Positions 51,681-60,597 of a stretch of DNA of 64,000 bases are shown here, one piece after another. The position numbers and the translations under genes were made by a program. Source of the DNA: Helicostylum pulchrum (Eukaryota; Mucoromycota; Mucoromycetes; Mucorales; Mucoraceae); assembly GCA_025677825.1 (NCBI GenBank), contig JAIXMO010000030.1:337934-401933 (forward strand), given 5' to 3'. Each line of letters begins with the position of its first letter. The first letter of the stretch is position 1. The notes beneath the pieces are model-generated. The model did no database searches, had not been told where the DNA came from, and saw nothing but the letters and a program-made list of their open reading frames with translations.

Positions 51681-54280
51681 TTTTTTTCTGTCTTTTTAAA
51701 AAAAGTAAAAAGAAGAGAAAAGCAGGGTAACAATAAAAATAGGCTTTTAATCTATTTTTATTAAAAGAAAAAAAAAATTTGAAACTTGTTCACTTAACGC
51801 GTCTGAGTTTCTTGGCAAAACAATTACTTTCGAAGACCGTTTTTCTTTTTATGTTTTCTGGGTACCTTTTTTTTTTTTGTTCACCTGTCAATTCCCTTCT
51901 TTCGGTTGATTAGCGAACTTGTGGATGGTTTTTTTAAGCTAGTTTAATCCTTTCGGCACATGATCTATTTTAGTGTGTGGACTTAACCAATTTGTTTCCA
52001 AGCTGTATCTCTTTTTTAATCAGGTAGGTTACAATGGGCTTCTTTTCGTTTTGTGGCATAGACGCACACGATTAAAGTCATTACTGTAAATGAAATATAC
52101 GTACAGTAAAAAAGTATATAAATTTGATCTAAATGGCCAAGTGTCCTTTTTTTTCAACTTTTTTTCGTAATTTGTATATATTTTCCTAATATGGCGATTA
52201 TCTAATCACTTATAAAACCTGCAATACTATTGTACCTTTTGTATCTAATAAGACGCTTACTAGGTTTACGAAAGTTAAAGTGATGTCTATTGTCTAATTA
52301 CAAAACACTTGTAAAACACTTTTTTACATGGATGGCGGCGGAAATAAAACTTTAGCAACATGTGTTGTTAAAAAGACATATCTCGTAAAAATAGTAAACC
52401 TGTTTACCAAAATAGACTATTTATAATATTTCTGCGTGTACATAAAATATTATTTAAAAACGAGTACATCTCTTGTATAGTTTTCTTTCTCGGCAAAGTT
52501 GGTCTATTCCGAAAGTTTAGCAAACTCAAAATCACGGAGCCATTTAACCTGTATAATTCCAATTCCAATTCGGATTGCCCCTGTAACCTTCAGTACGACT
52601 GAAAGATTGACTTTTAAACTTTCCAGAAAAAAACTTCGCACTGGCTGGCGAATATAACCAAGGACTTTTGTAGGAACATCGACATGAAACTATAATATGC
52701 CAATTTCTAATCGAATTATTCTAGAAACTGATATCTTAACATTACGCAGGGGGAAGAAGAAAAAAAGCTCCATGTATCTCTTTTACGTTATTAGGTTAGT
52801 TTGCTTGTCATGGTCCCTTCACTGCAACAATTATCAAATACGCTAATTTACTTTCACATGCGTATTAGATAGAAAAAAAAACATACAGTGTTTTTACTTG
52901 GTTTTACACCTTTTCGAAAAAAATATTGTATACCCGGGAAAACTTATACCTTTTTCTTCAAAAAAAATTAGCTTTTTTTTTGCAATTACATACGCCATCT
53001 GTTATTAAACAAATAGAGTTAAGGTTATCTTTTAAGCGATCGCGTTTCGATTACTATAAAACTTATGACGTATTAGCCATATTTACAAAAGTTTTGTATT
53101 TCTCCCCCTTTTTTAAAATGTCTTTAAGGAAAGCAATTGAACGCGTTTTTATTTTATTTTTATTTGTACACCTCTCTTTTTTTTTTTACTGTACCGAATA
53201 AAAAAAAATGTGAAAAGGCTAGCGTAATAATACACTGTTTTCGTTGTAGTATAGACCGGATGCCTATATACTAGTTACTGCTAGCTTCAGATTGATAAAA
53301 ATAAAGTAATAATGTAAAAAATCCACATACGCAACCGATTTGGAACGGCGATTTCATTCTTTCGCTCCTGTTTAAATAACTTATTCTTGCACTTCAATTG
53401 GTGTTCGAAGAATAGATGAATAGTATCGCAGCAATAAATATTTTTAAAAAAGAAAAGCAAGGAAAGAAAAATCTGTATATATCGCCAAATACCAACATCA
53501 CTGAGTAAAGTTTCATATAGACATGTATATAAAATTGTACACTCACTATACGAAAAAAAAAAAGACTGTCTTCTCTAAAACACATGTTTTTTTTCTCCGT
53601 GGGTACCGAGTGGGCGGGTTTTTTTCTTTAAATATGCACCATCGTATCGAAGGGTATTTTGCCCCTGCATCGTATTGTCGTATCGAGCAAAAGTATCCAA
53701 TCATACGTCAAATCAATGTTTTAGATTACGCGCGTAGGTGTTTTTATCCAACCAACAGAATTTTAATATTTCGGTTTAATAAGCATCATCTTTTGTTTCA
53801 AATCGTAGAAAAAAAAGAGGAGCGACCTAAGATACACTACGCTTACGTAAAGTTATAAACAATCTATTTGCTTCCAAACTATTTACTATGACAGCGTCAT
53901 AGTTAACCGTTGACTTTATTTTCAGTCAGTAAAACTACAGCAAGCAAACCAACCTTTTTTTTTTGTGCTTGTTGTGTTTCGATATAACACACTAAAAAAC
54001 TGAATAGTTTGTAATTTATTTAAATATAATTCGATTTTTATTTATTTAAATGTACACGTTTCTATCACGATGAGCTAAATGGTAAAGGTGGTTTGCTCGT
54101 TCGTTTCGACGTGAGAAATACGGTAGTAACGTATATTATGAATATTGAAGGGTTTTATCTTGAAATGCAAAAAATATGACCTAGAAAATTATATCATACG
54201 GTATGTTTATCGACAAGAAATTAAGCCTACGTGCATCTTTTTTTTCTAACTAACCATTTTATCAACTTCCCACGCTTCAG

Positions 54281-54282
<2 letters not shown>

Positions 54283-54310
<28 letters not shown>
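54283..54310. repeat. (TA)n microsatellite
   Basis: About 13-14 uninterrupted TA units just upstream of the duplicated secreted-protein region. Confidence 0.85.
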
Positions 54311-54316
<6 letters not shown>

Positions 54317-54761
54317 TTATAGTAGATCTCTTTGAAGACTTTATTTGGACCGAAGTAGGTCTATAAGGATACAGATTAGAAATGATAACATAGATCTACT
54401 ATACTTATATCCGCCGTATGTATTATGTTTATCAAATCTTTAATGCATCTCTGGATATTCCAGATAGTACTTTCATTGATTACTCTGGTAGTGTATATCA
54501 GTAACTTGTATAATATAAACTTCGGCCTTTTTGTCATAAGGTCCGAGTATGTATAGTAATAAAGAAACGTTTGACTTCTTAACTACAACGATCTTTTCCT
54601 CCGCGATTAAACCGTAAGTATCGAACTATTTTACTAAATGTATCCACATCATACAAATAATGTTTTTTTTTTCAAAATTAATGTACCGTGTATACCATAC
54701 ACGAAATACGGCATATATTTGTTTTATTTATTTTATTGTATCTAGAACTCCATTAATTTCC

Positions 54762-54924
54762 GACAGTATAAATATCTATTTTTTTCGTTTATTAAAAAGT
54801 ACCAAACTTTATTTTTACTGAGGTAAGTTTATATCTAAAATATTTTTCTTACAATGACTTGTTAATAATACTAACATATAATTATTATAGCCCTTCTAAA
54901 TTTATATCCCTACTTCGTACTTAG
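54762..54924 (+). promoter_or_regulatory. TATA box and 5'-UTR intron of secreted protein gene A
   Basis: The TATA-like gacagtataaatatc near 54762 is shared with copy C near 56917. The leader then has actgag|gtaagttt (donor GT at 54823), a TACTAAC branch site at about 54869 and a TTATTATAG acceptor at 54890; a second possible acceptor is the AG at 54923-54924, two bases before the ATG. Splicing in the untranslated leader is thus likely. Confidence 0.6.
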
Positions 54925-54925
54925 T

Positions 54926-55141
54926 ATGCTTGCTAAATCTTTAATTTCAATGGTTATATCCTTGGCTTTACCTCTCTTGGCTGTATGCGCCCCTCCTTCT
55001 AGTAATTGCACCAATAAGAGTTTCGATGAGTGTCTCTCGATGTACCCAGAGGTGCAAGACCCAAGGCTACGATTCGAAGTGATGAAAGCATGTGTTGGTG
55101 CTATTATCCATCCTGAACAGCACTGCTTTCCTCCCCTCTAA
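54926..55141 (+). CDS. Small secreted four-cysteine protein, copy A
   Basis: 71 aa: signal peptide MLAKSLISMVISLALPLLAV ending at about C21/A22, then a mature peptide of about 49 residues starting APPSSNC. Mature cysteines at 28, 36, 56 and 67 give spacing C-x7-C-x19-C-x10-C, suited to two disulfides. The C-terminus is PEQHCFPPL. No family recognised; size and pattern are those of fungal small secreted cysteine-rich proteins (effector, antimicrobial or signalling peptides are all possible). Paralogue of 57096-57311 with identical length and cysteine spacing but about 75 percent identical coding DNA by eye. Confidence 0.8.
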   Translation: MLAKSLISMVISLALPLLAVCAPPSSNCTNKSFDECLSMYPEVQDPRLRFEVMKACVGAIIHPEQHCFPPL

Positions 55142-55231
55142 TATTATTCCGTTCAAGATTGTTTAATAATATCTGTCTCTTCAATCTTTTTGTACAATAT
55201 TTATTACTTTTTAAATAAGTAAATATTTTAT

Positions 55232-55438
55232 TTGACCTTAAAGTGTAAATTTAACTACATCCCATGTGTTTCCAAATTTCAGAAATCATGCATTATACTC
55301 ATTTTAGGTACTCTAGCAATGATAGAAAATTCAGATACATGGGGTAATGCTCAACAGGATATATTTAAAAATAAATATCTAGGAGAAAAAATTCACTTAG
55401 AGCAAATATTTGTAAAGTGCAATTGCCCAAAACCATAG
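55232..55438 (+). other. Conserved 3' block of unit A, with open frame
   Basis: A block 90 bp after the stop of copy A is almost identical to 57398-57560 (about 96 percent over about 120 bp by eye). The same frame is open in both (SCIILILGTLAMIENSDTWG, NAQQDIFKNKY). In this copy the frame has no ATG at the aligned start (TTG), in copy C it has. It may be a conserved 3' untranslated element, a regulatory sequence, or a second small coding exon or gene. Confidence 0.45.
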
Positions 55439-56097
55439 CATGTCTCAATTTAACCAAGATAGTCATTTTAACGCGAACAACTGCCTTACGTCTACAAAAA
55501 CCTCTAAAGTACATTTTCGTAAAATGAATATTTACAAAGCTGTACATTTGCCAAATTCAAATAGTGAACAAAAATAAAAAATAAAATACGTGTATTAAAC
55601 CATGTAACTATCAGTCTTTTTTTTACGACGTTTACATTTTAGATATAAACTTTGCGTATTATGTGCGTACAGATAATATAAGATAGTAAATGCAGTTTAT
55701 TATTTTTGTTATCTCAATCTTTTTTCCATCAATTTACTAAATTTACGTAATTACCAAGCAGGTTTTTTTATAATGTAGCATACATTAGATTTAGCCAGGT
55801 TTTATATAATAGTAAATCATTGAATGCAAGATGTCTATCAATATGCAATACAGAATATATATGTTTTTGGATATTTTTCTATATACGCATTTTTTTTTTC
55901 GTACACGACACGATTAAACTTCCAACAGTATAATCGCCATACCTTTATTTTTATTATTATTTAATAAGTAGCTTTTGTTGCAGTAGTTATTTTAATATAG
56001 TACGTTTATACCTTAGTAGCATACTTTTTTTACGGAAACTATTGACGTTAACATAAAACTATTATAAATATATTAACTTGTATCCTTCTTTCGTATC

Positions 56098-56317
56098 ATG
56101 TTCGCTTAATCTTTAATTGCGATGTTTCCGTTTTTTTTTTAACCTTTTTTGTCTGTCCCCGCTCCCCCTTATGATCAACGCACCGCAAATAGTTTCAAAT
56201 AGTGCCTCTCGATATACTTACACAAATAAGCCAGACCCCGTCCGAAGATCACTCACTATAGAGACATGTGTTGATGATTTTATCAAGTCTAGAAGGCGGT
56301 GCTTCGTTTACACCTAA
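56098..56317 (+). pseudogene. Decayed middle copy B of the secreted protein gene
   Basis: Aligned to copies A and C, the start ATG is present but the fourth codon is a stop (TTCGCTTAA) and an expanded T tract disrupts the signal-peptide region. The 3' part is still recognisable: NKPDPVRRS aligns to the DP block, and ETCVDDFIKSRRRCFVYT keeps the C-x10-C spacing and ends at the same stop position. Confidence 0.7.
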
Positions 56318-57095
56318 TACTATTCAATTAAAGATGATAATTTTAAAATATTGGTCTCTTCTAAATATCTTCGTATACGACCTTTATTACTATTTACTTT
56401 GTAACAGAACAATATTTTGTACAATCATGAGGCATATATGTACATATTGAACCATGTTCCTGGTTTTCGAACTCTAGAAATAATGCATAACGCATTATAC
56501 CTGCTCCAAGTATTCTAGCAATGATAAATTCGGATGCATAGTACGTAATATTCGACATAATATATTTGAAGAAAAAAGAGGAAAAGTAAAACGCCCGCTT
56601 AGTCAATGTATTAAAGGTATATACCAGTTTGTTTCGATACCTTTAAATGTATTATATCTCTGGATATTCCAGATAATACTTTCACCGATTACCCTGGTAG
56701 CTTATATAAGTAATTTATAAAATACAAACTTCAATATTTTTGCTATAATGTTGGAAGATTTAGTAATAGAGAAACTTTTGTCTTCTTAGCTATGACGACC
56801 ATTCCTTCGCCATTTTACTAAATGTATGCATACCGTACGAATGATGTTTTATTTCAGAATTAATGTACCATGTATATCAACACGAAATACGACATATATT
56901 TACTTCTAGCTTTTTTCCAACAGTATAAATATCCCACTTTTTTCTTCTACTTGCTTTTTTTTTTATCAAAACATATCAAGCTTTATTTTTACTGAGGTAA
57001 GTTTATATCTAAAATATTTTTCTTACAAATGCTGGCTAGTAATACTAATATATAATTATTACAACCTTCCTAAATTCATATCCTTACTTTGTAGT

Positions 57096-57311
57096 ATGCT
57101 TGCTAAATCTTTAATTTCAGTCGTTCTGTCCTTGACTTTACCTCTCTTGGCTGTATGTGCCCCTCCTTACAGTAATTGCGTCAATGAAAGTTTTAATCAG
57201 TGTCTCTCAATGTACTCAGACCTGCCAGACCCAACCGGAAGGTTTCAACTAATGGATAGATGTATTAGAACTTTTGTCCAGCCTGGAACGCGATGCTTTG
57301 CTCTCCCCTAA
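57096..57311 (+). CDS. Small secreted four-cysteine protein, copy C
   Basis: 71 aa, signal peptide MLAKSLISVVLSLTLPLLAV, mature part APPYSNC and on, with Cys at 28, 36, 56, 67 exactly as in copy A. Most of the differences from copy A fall in the mature peptide (for example Arg/Lys, Phe/Val and Leu/Thr exchanges between the cysteines), while the signal peptide differs at few positions. The leader intron donor (GT at 56997) is retained, but the acceptor used by copy A is changed to TTATTACAA, leaving the AG at 57093-57094, two bases before the ATG. Confidence 0.8.
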   Translation: MLAKSLISVVLSLTLPLLAVCAPPYSNCVNESFNQCLSMYSDLPDPTGRFQLMDRCIRTFVQPGTRCFALP

Positions 57312-57397
57312 TACTAGTTTGTTAAATAGAGTTTAGTAATATCTTTTCTTCGATCTTTGTGTAAAATCTTTATTAATTGTTTAAATAAATATTTTAT

Positions 57398-57601
57398 ATG
57401 ATCTTAAAGCGTAAATTTAAATGTATCTCATTTGTTCCCAAATTTCAGAAATCATGCATTATACTCATTTTAAGTACTCTAGCAATGATAGAAAATTCAG
57501 ATACATGGGGTAATGCTCAACAGAATATATTTAAAAATAAATATCCAAGAGAAAAAGCTCGCCCAGAGCGAATATTTGTAAAGCGCAACTTCTCGATTTA
57601 A
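57398..57601 (+). other. Conserved 3' block of unit C, with open frame
   Basis: Counterpart of 55232-55438. Here the frame begins with ATG (MILKRKFKCISFVPKFQKSC) and runs 67 codons. The central IENSDTWGNAQQNIFKNKY is nearly identical to that of unit A. Could be a small gene or a conserved untranslated element. Confidence 0.45.
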
Positions 57602-58454
57602 CCGAGGTTGTCATTGTAACGTGAAACATTGCCTAACGTCTACAAAAACTTCTGAAGTACATTCTTGTACAATTAATATTCAGTGTCTGTCTGTTCAGAT
57701 AATACGATAGTGACTCTATTAAGGGATGACCTGCTTTAAGGGTAGGATTGATTTAAGGATGAATTTCTTCCAGATTTCGGCCATTCTTAAATATAGCTGC
57801 TACTGTAGGTGGTCTAAAATTACTGAAGCTTTTTGTTTTAGTAGTCATTTTATGACCTTTCTAGTAATCGTAAACAAAAAATAATAATACTCTCAGGAGT
57901 ACTTTTTACTTTTTTTTTACAGTATTGTTATTCACGAAAAACTATTCTTTTTCTCTTGAAACACTTGTACTAACATGAATAGATTCTAGTTTTTCAAGGT
58001 TTTCTCTTGGATAACCGATTTCCACCTCTTCATTGGTTAGCACTATAATATATTTCTTGATCTGGCAATCCTTGCAGTAACACAATAAAACGGTGCGTTA
58101 ATTTGGTACCTTGTACTATCGGAGATGGAGCTCTCTTTTTGTTTACCTTTTTTTTTTACGAGTGAACACCTCCACCTGTAAAACTGAGTGAATACAACAG
58201 GATAAATAAGCAATCTAATTGAAGTGGCAAAAAAAGAGACGAAAATGAAAGCAAAAAGAGAAATAAATAAATTGCGTCGGGCTTAGGTTGTCTCAAGCGT
58301 GAGCTTTTCACGAGTACGAAGTTTGTACAACACATCATGTATATTTGTTCTCACTCTCTACCAACTTGATTACACACATTTCTTTTACTTTTTCCTTTCT
58401 TTTCTCTCTTTTTCTTTTTAAACAAACCACTTACTTTCCTTTTTCAATTAAATA
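57602..58454. other. Intergenic region, promoter of the Kelch gene
   Basis: No gene seen. CT-rich stretch 58378-58440 immediately before the Kelch ATG is a typical fungal leader. Confidence 0.45.
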
Positions 58455-60597
58455 ATGATAATATCAGGACAATTTGTTCGAGTCGCTCTCGCCGTCATAA
58501 CTGTATTACCAACATTAATTTCAGCCCTGAATGATACAGAAAAAAATATTTTTTCTAGAGAGTATGCTTCAACTGTTACAAAGAAAAATATCATTCATTT
58601 TTTCGGTGGTTCCAGTGTAAGAACACTTTTTTTTTTTTTCGTTTATTTATCTTTGAAAAAAAAAAGTCTTCTAATCGTAGTCATGATGACAGACTCATTT
58701 AGAGGCCATTTTTCTTGATGCAACTAATGGTCTCGATGCCAACAGTCCTACTTGGAATTGGGGGGATAAACCTCCAGGGTCAGATTTTAAAGCCTTTACT
58801 AGAGGAGTTGCCTTTGCTGGTAATAATGATGATATTTTCCTTCAAGGTGGAGAGGGATCAACTGCATTTATGGAAAATTTAGTCGTATTTAATAACAATA
58901 AGTGGAGAAAAGGTGAGTCCCCTTTTTTTTCGTGTGAAATCAAAAAGTACTGAAAAGCTTATTTTCCTTTTAATCCACTAGCTCCCGCCATTGGCGACGT
59001 TCCTGCTGCTACTGCATTGATGACGGCTAATTTAAATCCATCGGATAATTCCGTTTATTACTATGGTGGTAGACTAATAAAAAACCATCAACTTGACGTT
59101 ACCGCGGCATCCGTATGTTACATGTACAATTATTCAGTTTTTATGCTAATTTTTTTTTCTTTGCATTTATGTAGCTTAATACCTTTTATAAGTTCGATGT
59201 AAATAATGGAATTTGGTCTACTCTTAACCCTGCTACTAATGGTATTGAACGTCCAGGACGTACTGCTCATACCTCAAACTTGGTGTAGGTTATCCGTAAA
59301 ATGATAAAGTTTTTGCAACTCACTTTTTTTTTTATAGCAATGATCAAGTATTTATTATGGGCGGTGTTTCTGATTTTAAAAACGATAGTAAAGTTGGACC
59401 CTCTGCAGATTTCGCTAGTGTCCTAGGTAAATAAAACAAGTAAAGGAAATAACACAAAAAGAAACTTAATCCTTTTCGAAAAAAAAAACAGTATATGATA
59501 TCTCAAAGAACACTGCAGTTTCTATCACTACGCTCGGAGATATTCCTCCTGCTAGAAATAGGTAATAATAATGAGGAGGTTTTATATATATCAGTAGCTA
59601 AAAAAAGATTTTTTTTTCGTATGTATTAGTTATTCTACTGCTTTAGGTAAGAGTGGAATACAAGTAAATCAGCTGATAACACTAATGCTAATTACATGGA
59701 ATTTTAGGGTTGAATGGACATTCTATTGTAATGTACGGTGGAATCTTGGTTGGTGGAAAAGATGAGGGCAAAGCTGCACCAACGGATGTATACGTGCTTG
59801 ACACTTGCTCCCTCACTTGGAGTAAGCAATCTACCAAGGGTTCTGCACCCGGCTCACTCAACTCTCATAACGCTATCAACATTAATAATTACATGGTTCT
59901 TGCCTTGGGAAAAACTAATGATAAGGATTACAACTTTAATATTGCTATCCTTGACATGGCGCAATGGAAATGGGTCAGCACTTTTACTGAAACAAAGAAC
60001 ACAATTCAGCCAGGTAGTTGTAAGTTTGAATTACCATCTATTGATGGCACTATTACCTCTTCAACGGATTACTCTCCTATGAATTACGATGACAGTGTTA
60101 TGACAAATCCTCTCACACCTGTCGAGAAGAAGGTCGATAGTAAGGGCTTTGGTATTGGGTTCGGTATTTTAGCTGTTGTCTTGATTGCCGTAGGTGCTTA
60201 TTTCTACGTAAAACGTGTCCGTAACAAGAAGTCTAGAACCTTAAACCCTAGATGGATGCGTAGCGCACCTGCTAATACCAACAGCGGTTACAGTAACGAT
60301 CGTGATTATCCGTTATTTGTTTACAACAAGGAGTTAGATACCGACAATATCAATAACCCCAACGTCCCTCGATCACAAACTGCTTTTGCTACTAACGGTG
60401 TTAGAACATACACTGCTTCCGACCATGAGCAATGGGAACAAGAATTAAATGGTGATGCTGCTAATTCGAATGGTGTCACATCAAGCCGTAATAGCGATAT
60501 CTGGAATCGTATGCGTGGATTAAATGACGCTTCTGTTATTAGTGACGAGGAAGTTCAACGAAACCGCACAAACAATGGTAGACTTGTGGATCTTTAA
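58455..60597 (+). CDS. Kelch-repeat single-pass membrane protein
   Basis: Eight exons: 58455-58616, 58693-58912, 58982-59112, 59175-59284, 59338-59426, 59492-59561, 59630-59646 (17 nt), 59708-60597; 562 aa. Signal peptide MIISGQFVRVALAVITVLPT...SA. The extracytosolic region is a beta-propeller of Kelch repeats (DDIFLQGGEGS, NSVYYYGGRL, DQVFIMGGVSDF, HSIVMYGGILVGG) with PGRTAHTSNLV-type loops. A transmembrane helix (GFGIGFGILAVVLIAVGAYF, about residues 412-432) is followed by a basic stop and a tail of about 130 polar residues. The architecture is common in Mucoromycota, where such proteins are annotated only as Kelch or galactose-oxidase-like. For the first junction three acceptors are possible; I chose 58692 because it pairs in frame with the GTAAGA donor. 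Role probably surface recognition or polarity (inference). Confidence 0.85.

Follow-up and report, generated by a model that had tools for sequence, protein, structure and literature searches.

Evidence for diversifying selection on the mature part of a small family of putative secreted peptides in Helicostylum pulchrum

Why should the coding DNA of two neighboring genes differ more than the non-coding DNA around them? The question is raised by a tandem array in the mould Helicostylum pulchrum (Mucorales; GenBank assembly GCA_025677825.1, contig JAIXMO010000030.1, positions 337,934 to 401,933 of the forward strand; this whole stretch of 64,000 nucleotides is the window, and positions are counted within it). 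The array belongs to a putative secreted-peptide gene family with five copies at two loci: A, B, and C lie in the window, D and E on another contig (C110). From copies A and C an earlier note had proposed diversifying selection on the mature peptide, or gene conversion affecting the flanks. We found that the first conclusion is supported, chiefly on evidence beyond the comparison of A with C, and that conversion has probably acted on one block of the 3′ flank.

Divergence of the mature peptides

The resemblance of A and C is as had been described. Both are intact open reading frames (ORFs) of 71 codons, equal in length, with a common signal peptide and the same spacing of four cysteines. Their coding sequences (CDS) differ at 49/213 sites (77% identical, close to the 75% first estimated by eye), and most changes fall in the mature part (43/150 sites, against 6/63 in the signal codons). 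The near-identity of the flanks holds for the best-conserved stretches only: the alignment shows full identity over about 48 bp at and beside the intron donor, and 104 of 108 sites agree in a block on the 3′ side, while the other alignable flank differs at 139/690 sites (20%). That coding DNA changes faster than its flanks is marginal in this pair; change faster than neutral became clear only once the third intact copy, D, was included.

The comparison of C with D carries the case. Mature differences were found at 18/50 first, 20/50 second, and 8/50 third codon positions (38/100 at positions 1 and 2 together against 8/50, p = 0.004). Positions 1 and 2 also exceed the flanks outside the 3′ block (82/586; p = 7e-8, the same when G/C and A/T sites are stratified, odds ratio (OR) 3.4) and the pseudogene pair B–E (112/704; p = 8e-7, stratified 6e-7). 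They have changed at 2.4 times the pseudogene rate, and position 3 has changed at that rate (stratified p = 0.58). Although 31 of the 50 mature residues differ between C and D, only one of the 19 codons for a shared residue differs in sequence. The pair B–E can serve as a neutral yardstick because both copies were probably dead before the duplication that is taken as the C/D split, and their divergence is taken to date from the same event. Since lost constraint cannot raise change above the neutral rate, positive selection is supported. The earlier note had treated flank divergence equal to synonymous divergence as a sign against selection. This was partly mis-stated, as diversifying selection predicts flanks and synonymous sites about equally diverged, with nonsynonymous divergence (dN) above both, and this is the pattern of C and D.

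The pair A–D agrees, with a weaker contrast to the flanks (positions 1 and 2 41/100, flank 121/574, stratified p = 2e-4). For C–D and A–D alike, p stayed at or below 0.002 when the start of the mature part was moved to codon 23, 25, or 28. Signal codons differ at 4/63 sites in C–D and change less than the flanks in all three pairs (OR 0.36–0.42). A mutation hotspot in the coding DNA was rejected: the remnant CDS of B–E, at 26/193, is not elevated over its own flanks (86/511). The region is A+T-rich; its G/C sites have diverged at roughly double the rate of its A/T sites, and G/C is commoner in the CDS. The excess in C–D and in A–D nevertheless remains significant under stratification.

Copies, flanks, and gene conversion

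The features of the array and of its counterpart are as follows.

54447..54822, plus strand: flanking DNA on the 5′ side and leader exon of unit A, up to a likely intron donor (from repeat families D5, D8, D9, and D3 and the alignment with C and D)
54823..54890, plus strand: likely intron in the 5′ untranslated region (5′-UTR) of unit A, with donor GTAAGT at 54823 and a TACTAAC branch-like site, as read from the sequence
54926..55141, plus strand: CDS of A, 71 amino acids; signal taken as codons 1–21, mature part as 22–71, with Cys 28, 36, 56, and 67
55283..55390, plus strand: 3′ block of A, agreeing with C at 104/108 sites, a likely conversion tract
56098..56317, plus strand: pseudogene B, with TAA as codon 4 and 220 nt against 216 in the intact copies
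56656..56996, plus strand: flanking DNA on the 5′ side and leader exon of unit C, with a likely intron donor GT at 56997
57096..57311, plus strand: CDS of C, 71 amino acids, intact ORF
57449..57556, plus strand: 3′ block of C, matching 55283–55390 (register of repeat family D2)
55461..57808, plus strand: segment present a second time on contig C110, where the version at about 11.2–13.0 kb, on the minus strand, carries E and D and has internal deletions
C110:11922-11707, minus strand: CDS of D, intact, found by genome search with A; outside the 64-kb stretch

A and C point the same way at a spacing of 2.17 kb, and similar DNA extends for about 0.4–0.5 kb on both sides of each. Splicing of the 5′-UTR intron of unit A is predicted, with the acceptor either at 54890 or at 54924, right before the start codon; the AG at 54889–54890 is missing from C and D, and a TAG before TATG is common to A, C, and D. 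In copy D the end of the leader and the GTAAG donor, present in both A and C, are missing (54805–54835 against C110:12010-12035), so that its splicing may differ or not take place.

The degenerate copy E carries the same stop at codon 4 as B; because this stop is common to both, they were probably dead before the segment was duplicated. No further intact copy was found in the genome (32.2 Mb, 168 contigs) by searches with A, with the Thamnidium peptide described below, and with a DNA pattern for the signal peptide (23 bases, up to three mismatches). The paralogue searches returned A, C, and D, with E only when A was the query; B was not listed, so degenerate copies can escape them. At 54426–54446 a short run (ATG-TTT-ATC-AAA-TCT-TTA-ATG) resembles the signal-peptide start of the other copies (repeat family D4, 63–72%), and may be what is left of another lost copy, or a chance likeness. 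A (TA)n microsatellite lies immediately to the left of the array, at 54282–54309. Unit C closes on the right with about 125 bp (57690–57815), also found at D, whose ends look inverted by eye; at least 40 matches were found across the genome (of 91 candidates, 40 were scored), as in a miniature inverted-repeat transposable element.

The proposal of gene conversion in the flanks is supported for the 3′ block, where the identity of A and C is most striking. Within the block A and C differ at 4/108 sites, and A–D and C–D each at 20/108. Beside it, C and D are close (9/140 and 9/126) and A and D are not (23/140 and 26/126). At informative sites A equals C in 18/22 cases inside the block, while C equals D in 20/29 just before it and in 23/33 just after. 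A run of 17 consecutive non-coding informative sites is without any agreement of C with D (55290–55379; permutation p = 0.0016). Since C and D are close on either side and yet as far apart within the block as A and D, the block is best read as the product of A-to-C gene conversion after the C–D split. A conserved functional element was considered and set aside: D and B differ there, A–D equals C–D, and conversion fits better. A search of Rfam over 54000–58400 gave no match at gathering score. The 3′ block of D (C110:11300-11590) has unusually many insertions of 1–4 bases relative to A and C, perhaps uncorrected long-read assembly errors; divergence of A and D is no higher in the block than beside it despite these insertions. 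The identical leader stretch offers just three informative sites, all with A equal to C (54822–54852), and D is deleted there, so that no conclusion on conversion is drawn for it.

The peptide and its relatives

The hydrophobic N-terminus of the 71-residue protein suggests secretion. Across seven aligned sequences 14/21 signal residues are invariant, and residues 3–21 form a helix in the AlphaFold2 model of A described below. Cysteines 28, 36, 56, and 67 are invariant in all seven, as is Cys 21, which would give five mature cysteines if cleavage lies before it. In total, 11 mature positions are invariant, the four cysteines included. The net charge of the mature part (K+R minus D+E) ranges from -4 to 0, that is, neutral to acidic, which disfavors an ordinary cationic antimicrobial peptide. 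The AlphaFold2 model of A, built with the seven sequences, has a mean predicted local distance difference test score (pLDDT) of 70 and a predicted template-modelling score (pTM) of 0.43, and is best at residues 31–60. It places helices at 25–38, 46–61, and 63–67 with moderate confidence, and a helical fold held by disulphides is predicted.

Protein searches with the family alignment returned four and five proteins from 5.8 billion, C itself among them; such searches find only relatives that share short exact words, and more distant ones may exist. Relatives were found here only in Helicostylum, Thamnidium, and the sources of two proteins, P0003 and P0005. HPULCUR_001817 of H. pulchrum, which appears to come from the KT1b annotation of this species (genome, PMC11385716), is an A-type orthologue with 48/50 mature residues identical. 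P0003 is of D type (mature 50/50, signal 20/21), and P0005 is of A type, with changes near codons 22–35, a longer tail, and most of the second half the same as in A. The protein of Thamnidium elegans (BDF21DRAFT_429730) is more distant, agreeing with the six others at 15–18/21 signal residues and at 19–24 of 49–50 mature ones.

A kelch-repeat gene at 58455–60597 neighbors the array and is 98% identical to EDC94DRAFT_615525 of H. pulchrum (exons joined by eye). In contrast to the mature peptides, its product is 78% identical to the Thamnidium protein BDF21DRAFT_429732, whose locus tag is two from 429730; the tags suggest that the Thamnidium family member sits in the same gene neighborhood.

Competing explanations and known systems

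We consider it probable that the genes make up a small birth-and-death family coding for secreted, disulphide-stabilized helical peptides of about 50 residues, and that selection diversified these after duplication. Each gene would act as a cassette, in which the conserved leader, the 5′-UTR intron, and the signal peptide serve to export the peptide. The scaffold would be kept by the four cysteines, together with a small number of further fixed residues, while the remaining mature surface would have changed between C and D and between A and D beyond the neutral rate. Selection for new binding specificities after duplication would be the simplest cause, and local gene conversion would have homogenized some of the non-coding DNA between tandem copies. 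The most likely role would be a ligand-, toxin-, or effector-like one in antagonism with other organisms.

The main rival to antagonism as the role is a split of subfunctions, in which a brief, non-antagonistic episode of selection followed duplication, and the copies have since been kept by purifying selection in fixed endogenous roles, for example as developmental signals. It is a serious possibility, though clearly the less likely one, and the selection claim is common to both accounts, so that our estimates for them overlap. Consistent with a split, the mature parts of A and D are matched at 48/50 and 50/50 residues in their nearest relatives, and P0005 keeps most of the second half of A. 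Since the A and D types are conserved in this way, the rapid change came after duplication, and neither within A nor within D is it visibly continuing. The comparison with such close relatives may, however, be too shallow, and the turnover of copies (two pseudogenes among five), the small number of relatives, and a mature part widely diverged from that of Thamnidium accord no less well with antagonism.

Several results weigh against diversification by selection. The near-identity of A and D to their nearest relatives gives no hint that an allelic arms race is still under way. In A–C the excess of the mature part over the flanks (uncorrected p = 0.016) weakens to p = 0.09 for the whole mature part when G/C and A/T sites are stratified; at positions 1 and 2 the stratified p is 0.10, 0.07, 0.04, and 0.03 for a mature start at codon 22, 23, 25, and 28, and the corrected range of 0.03–0.10 leaves this excess marginal when taken alone. 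The ratio of nonsynonymous to synonymous divergence (dN/dS, or omega; NG86 method) for the mature part of A–C is 0.96 (bootstrap 0.39–2.93). A codon-only test on the three copies is borderline (mature omega 2.06, likelihood-ratio test p = 0.051), and omega for the whole CDS is 1.47 (p = 0.22), with 0.33 for the signal (p = 0.14). The bootstrap probability that dN does not exceed dS in the mature part is 0.05 for C–D, 0.06 for A–D, and 0.52 for A–C, and the 95% intervals of omega take in 1 for all three pairs, which are not independent, coming from three genes of 50 mature codons each. Profile and structure searches brought neither a known domain nor a fold match. For A, C, and D there was no Pfam match at E ≤ 10, and a scan of six members (with HPULCUR_001817, leaving aside Thamnidium) gave only Cys_rich_FGFR, in one member, at E = 0.12. 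A fold search with the model of A gave 43 PDB matches at E ≤ 10 and none at E ≤ 0.001, and a sequence search of PDB gave two matches, at chance level only.

It could be argued from these figures that no positive selection is needed: the mature part would be unconstrained, and the flanks and signal constrained or homogenized by conversion. The mature dN/dS of A–C, the borderline codon-only tests, the conversion-like tract in the 3′ block, and the faster change of G/C sites in a G/C-richer CDS, which takes away much of the A–C excess, all agree with such an account. It is already disfavored for C–D and A–D, however, and we regard it as unlikely overall: positions 1 and 2 of C–D run well above the rate of the B–E pseudogenes, which are free of protein constraint, and position 3 runs at that rate. 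Least probable of all is a replacement of the mature segment, in C or in D, by that of a more distant paralogue with signal and flanks kept. In its favor, copies of this family seem to undergo conversion, and similarity gives way to dissimilarity rather abruptly near codon 22; the mature NG86 dS of C–D (0.237) is also somewhat above the divergence K of the flanks (0.155) and of B–E (0.179). Such a swap should, however, raise synonymous divergence too, and position 3 of C–D (8/50) matches B–E (112/704), the same-residue codons (1/19) and shared fourfold sites (0/5, both small numbers) hardly differ, and the genome searches gave no other source copy.

Selection on the mature peptide after duplication is accordingly the explanation that we retain. 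As judged from sequence, the family would belong to a kind, not a homologous group, namely positively selected small secreted cysteine-containing proteins. HPULCUR_001817 carries the UniRef name Prolamin-like (PF05617), and proteins of that name are likewise small and cysteine-containing. The Pfam scans (A, C, and D; six members) do not support the label, and a PF05617 search of the genome gave no match at the curated cut-off, nor in 14 control genomes. A match to con-ikot-ikot (E = 0.2) was at chance level.

In conotoxins and frog skin antimicrobial peptides the signal is conserved, while the mature peptide is hypervariable around cysteines that stay in place as a scaffold. The same pattern of signal and mature part is found here, although those are animal families and the likeness is one of pattern. 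A bolder reading, which we hold only tentatively and think improbable as a whole, is that Mucorales possess a toxin- or recognition-like cassette system, with leader, intron, and signal kept alike partly by conversion and the mature part diversifying after each duplication. If true, this would be a system that works like the peptide families of cone snails or frog skin, in a mould.

Among fungi that cause plant disease, secreted proteins that diversify are a familiar phenomenon (for example PMC3582587). In the library searched, no paper on positively selected small secreted cysteine-rich proteins in Mucorales was found, which does not show that none exists in print. With the sister pseudogenes B and E of one duplicated segment as an internal neutral control, the five-copy family lends itself well to the question of what such moulds compete with or recognize. 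The candidate secreted effector proteins (CSEPs) of barley powdery mildew are described as duplicated secreted families with conserved cysteines and signal peptides under purifying selection, and with diversifying selection in parts of many families, shorter ones above all (PMC3582587). Their genome is that of an obligate biotroph of plants, whereas ours is that of a mould with five copies; the YxC motif and the ribonuclease-like fold are further features of CSEPs. What the two would have in common is secretion and duplication, with signal and cysteines kept and the mature part diversified (PMC3582587), a likeness of pattern in which no homology was seen.

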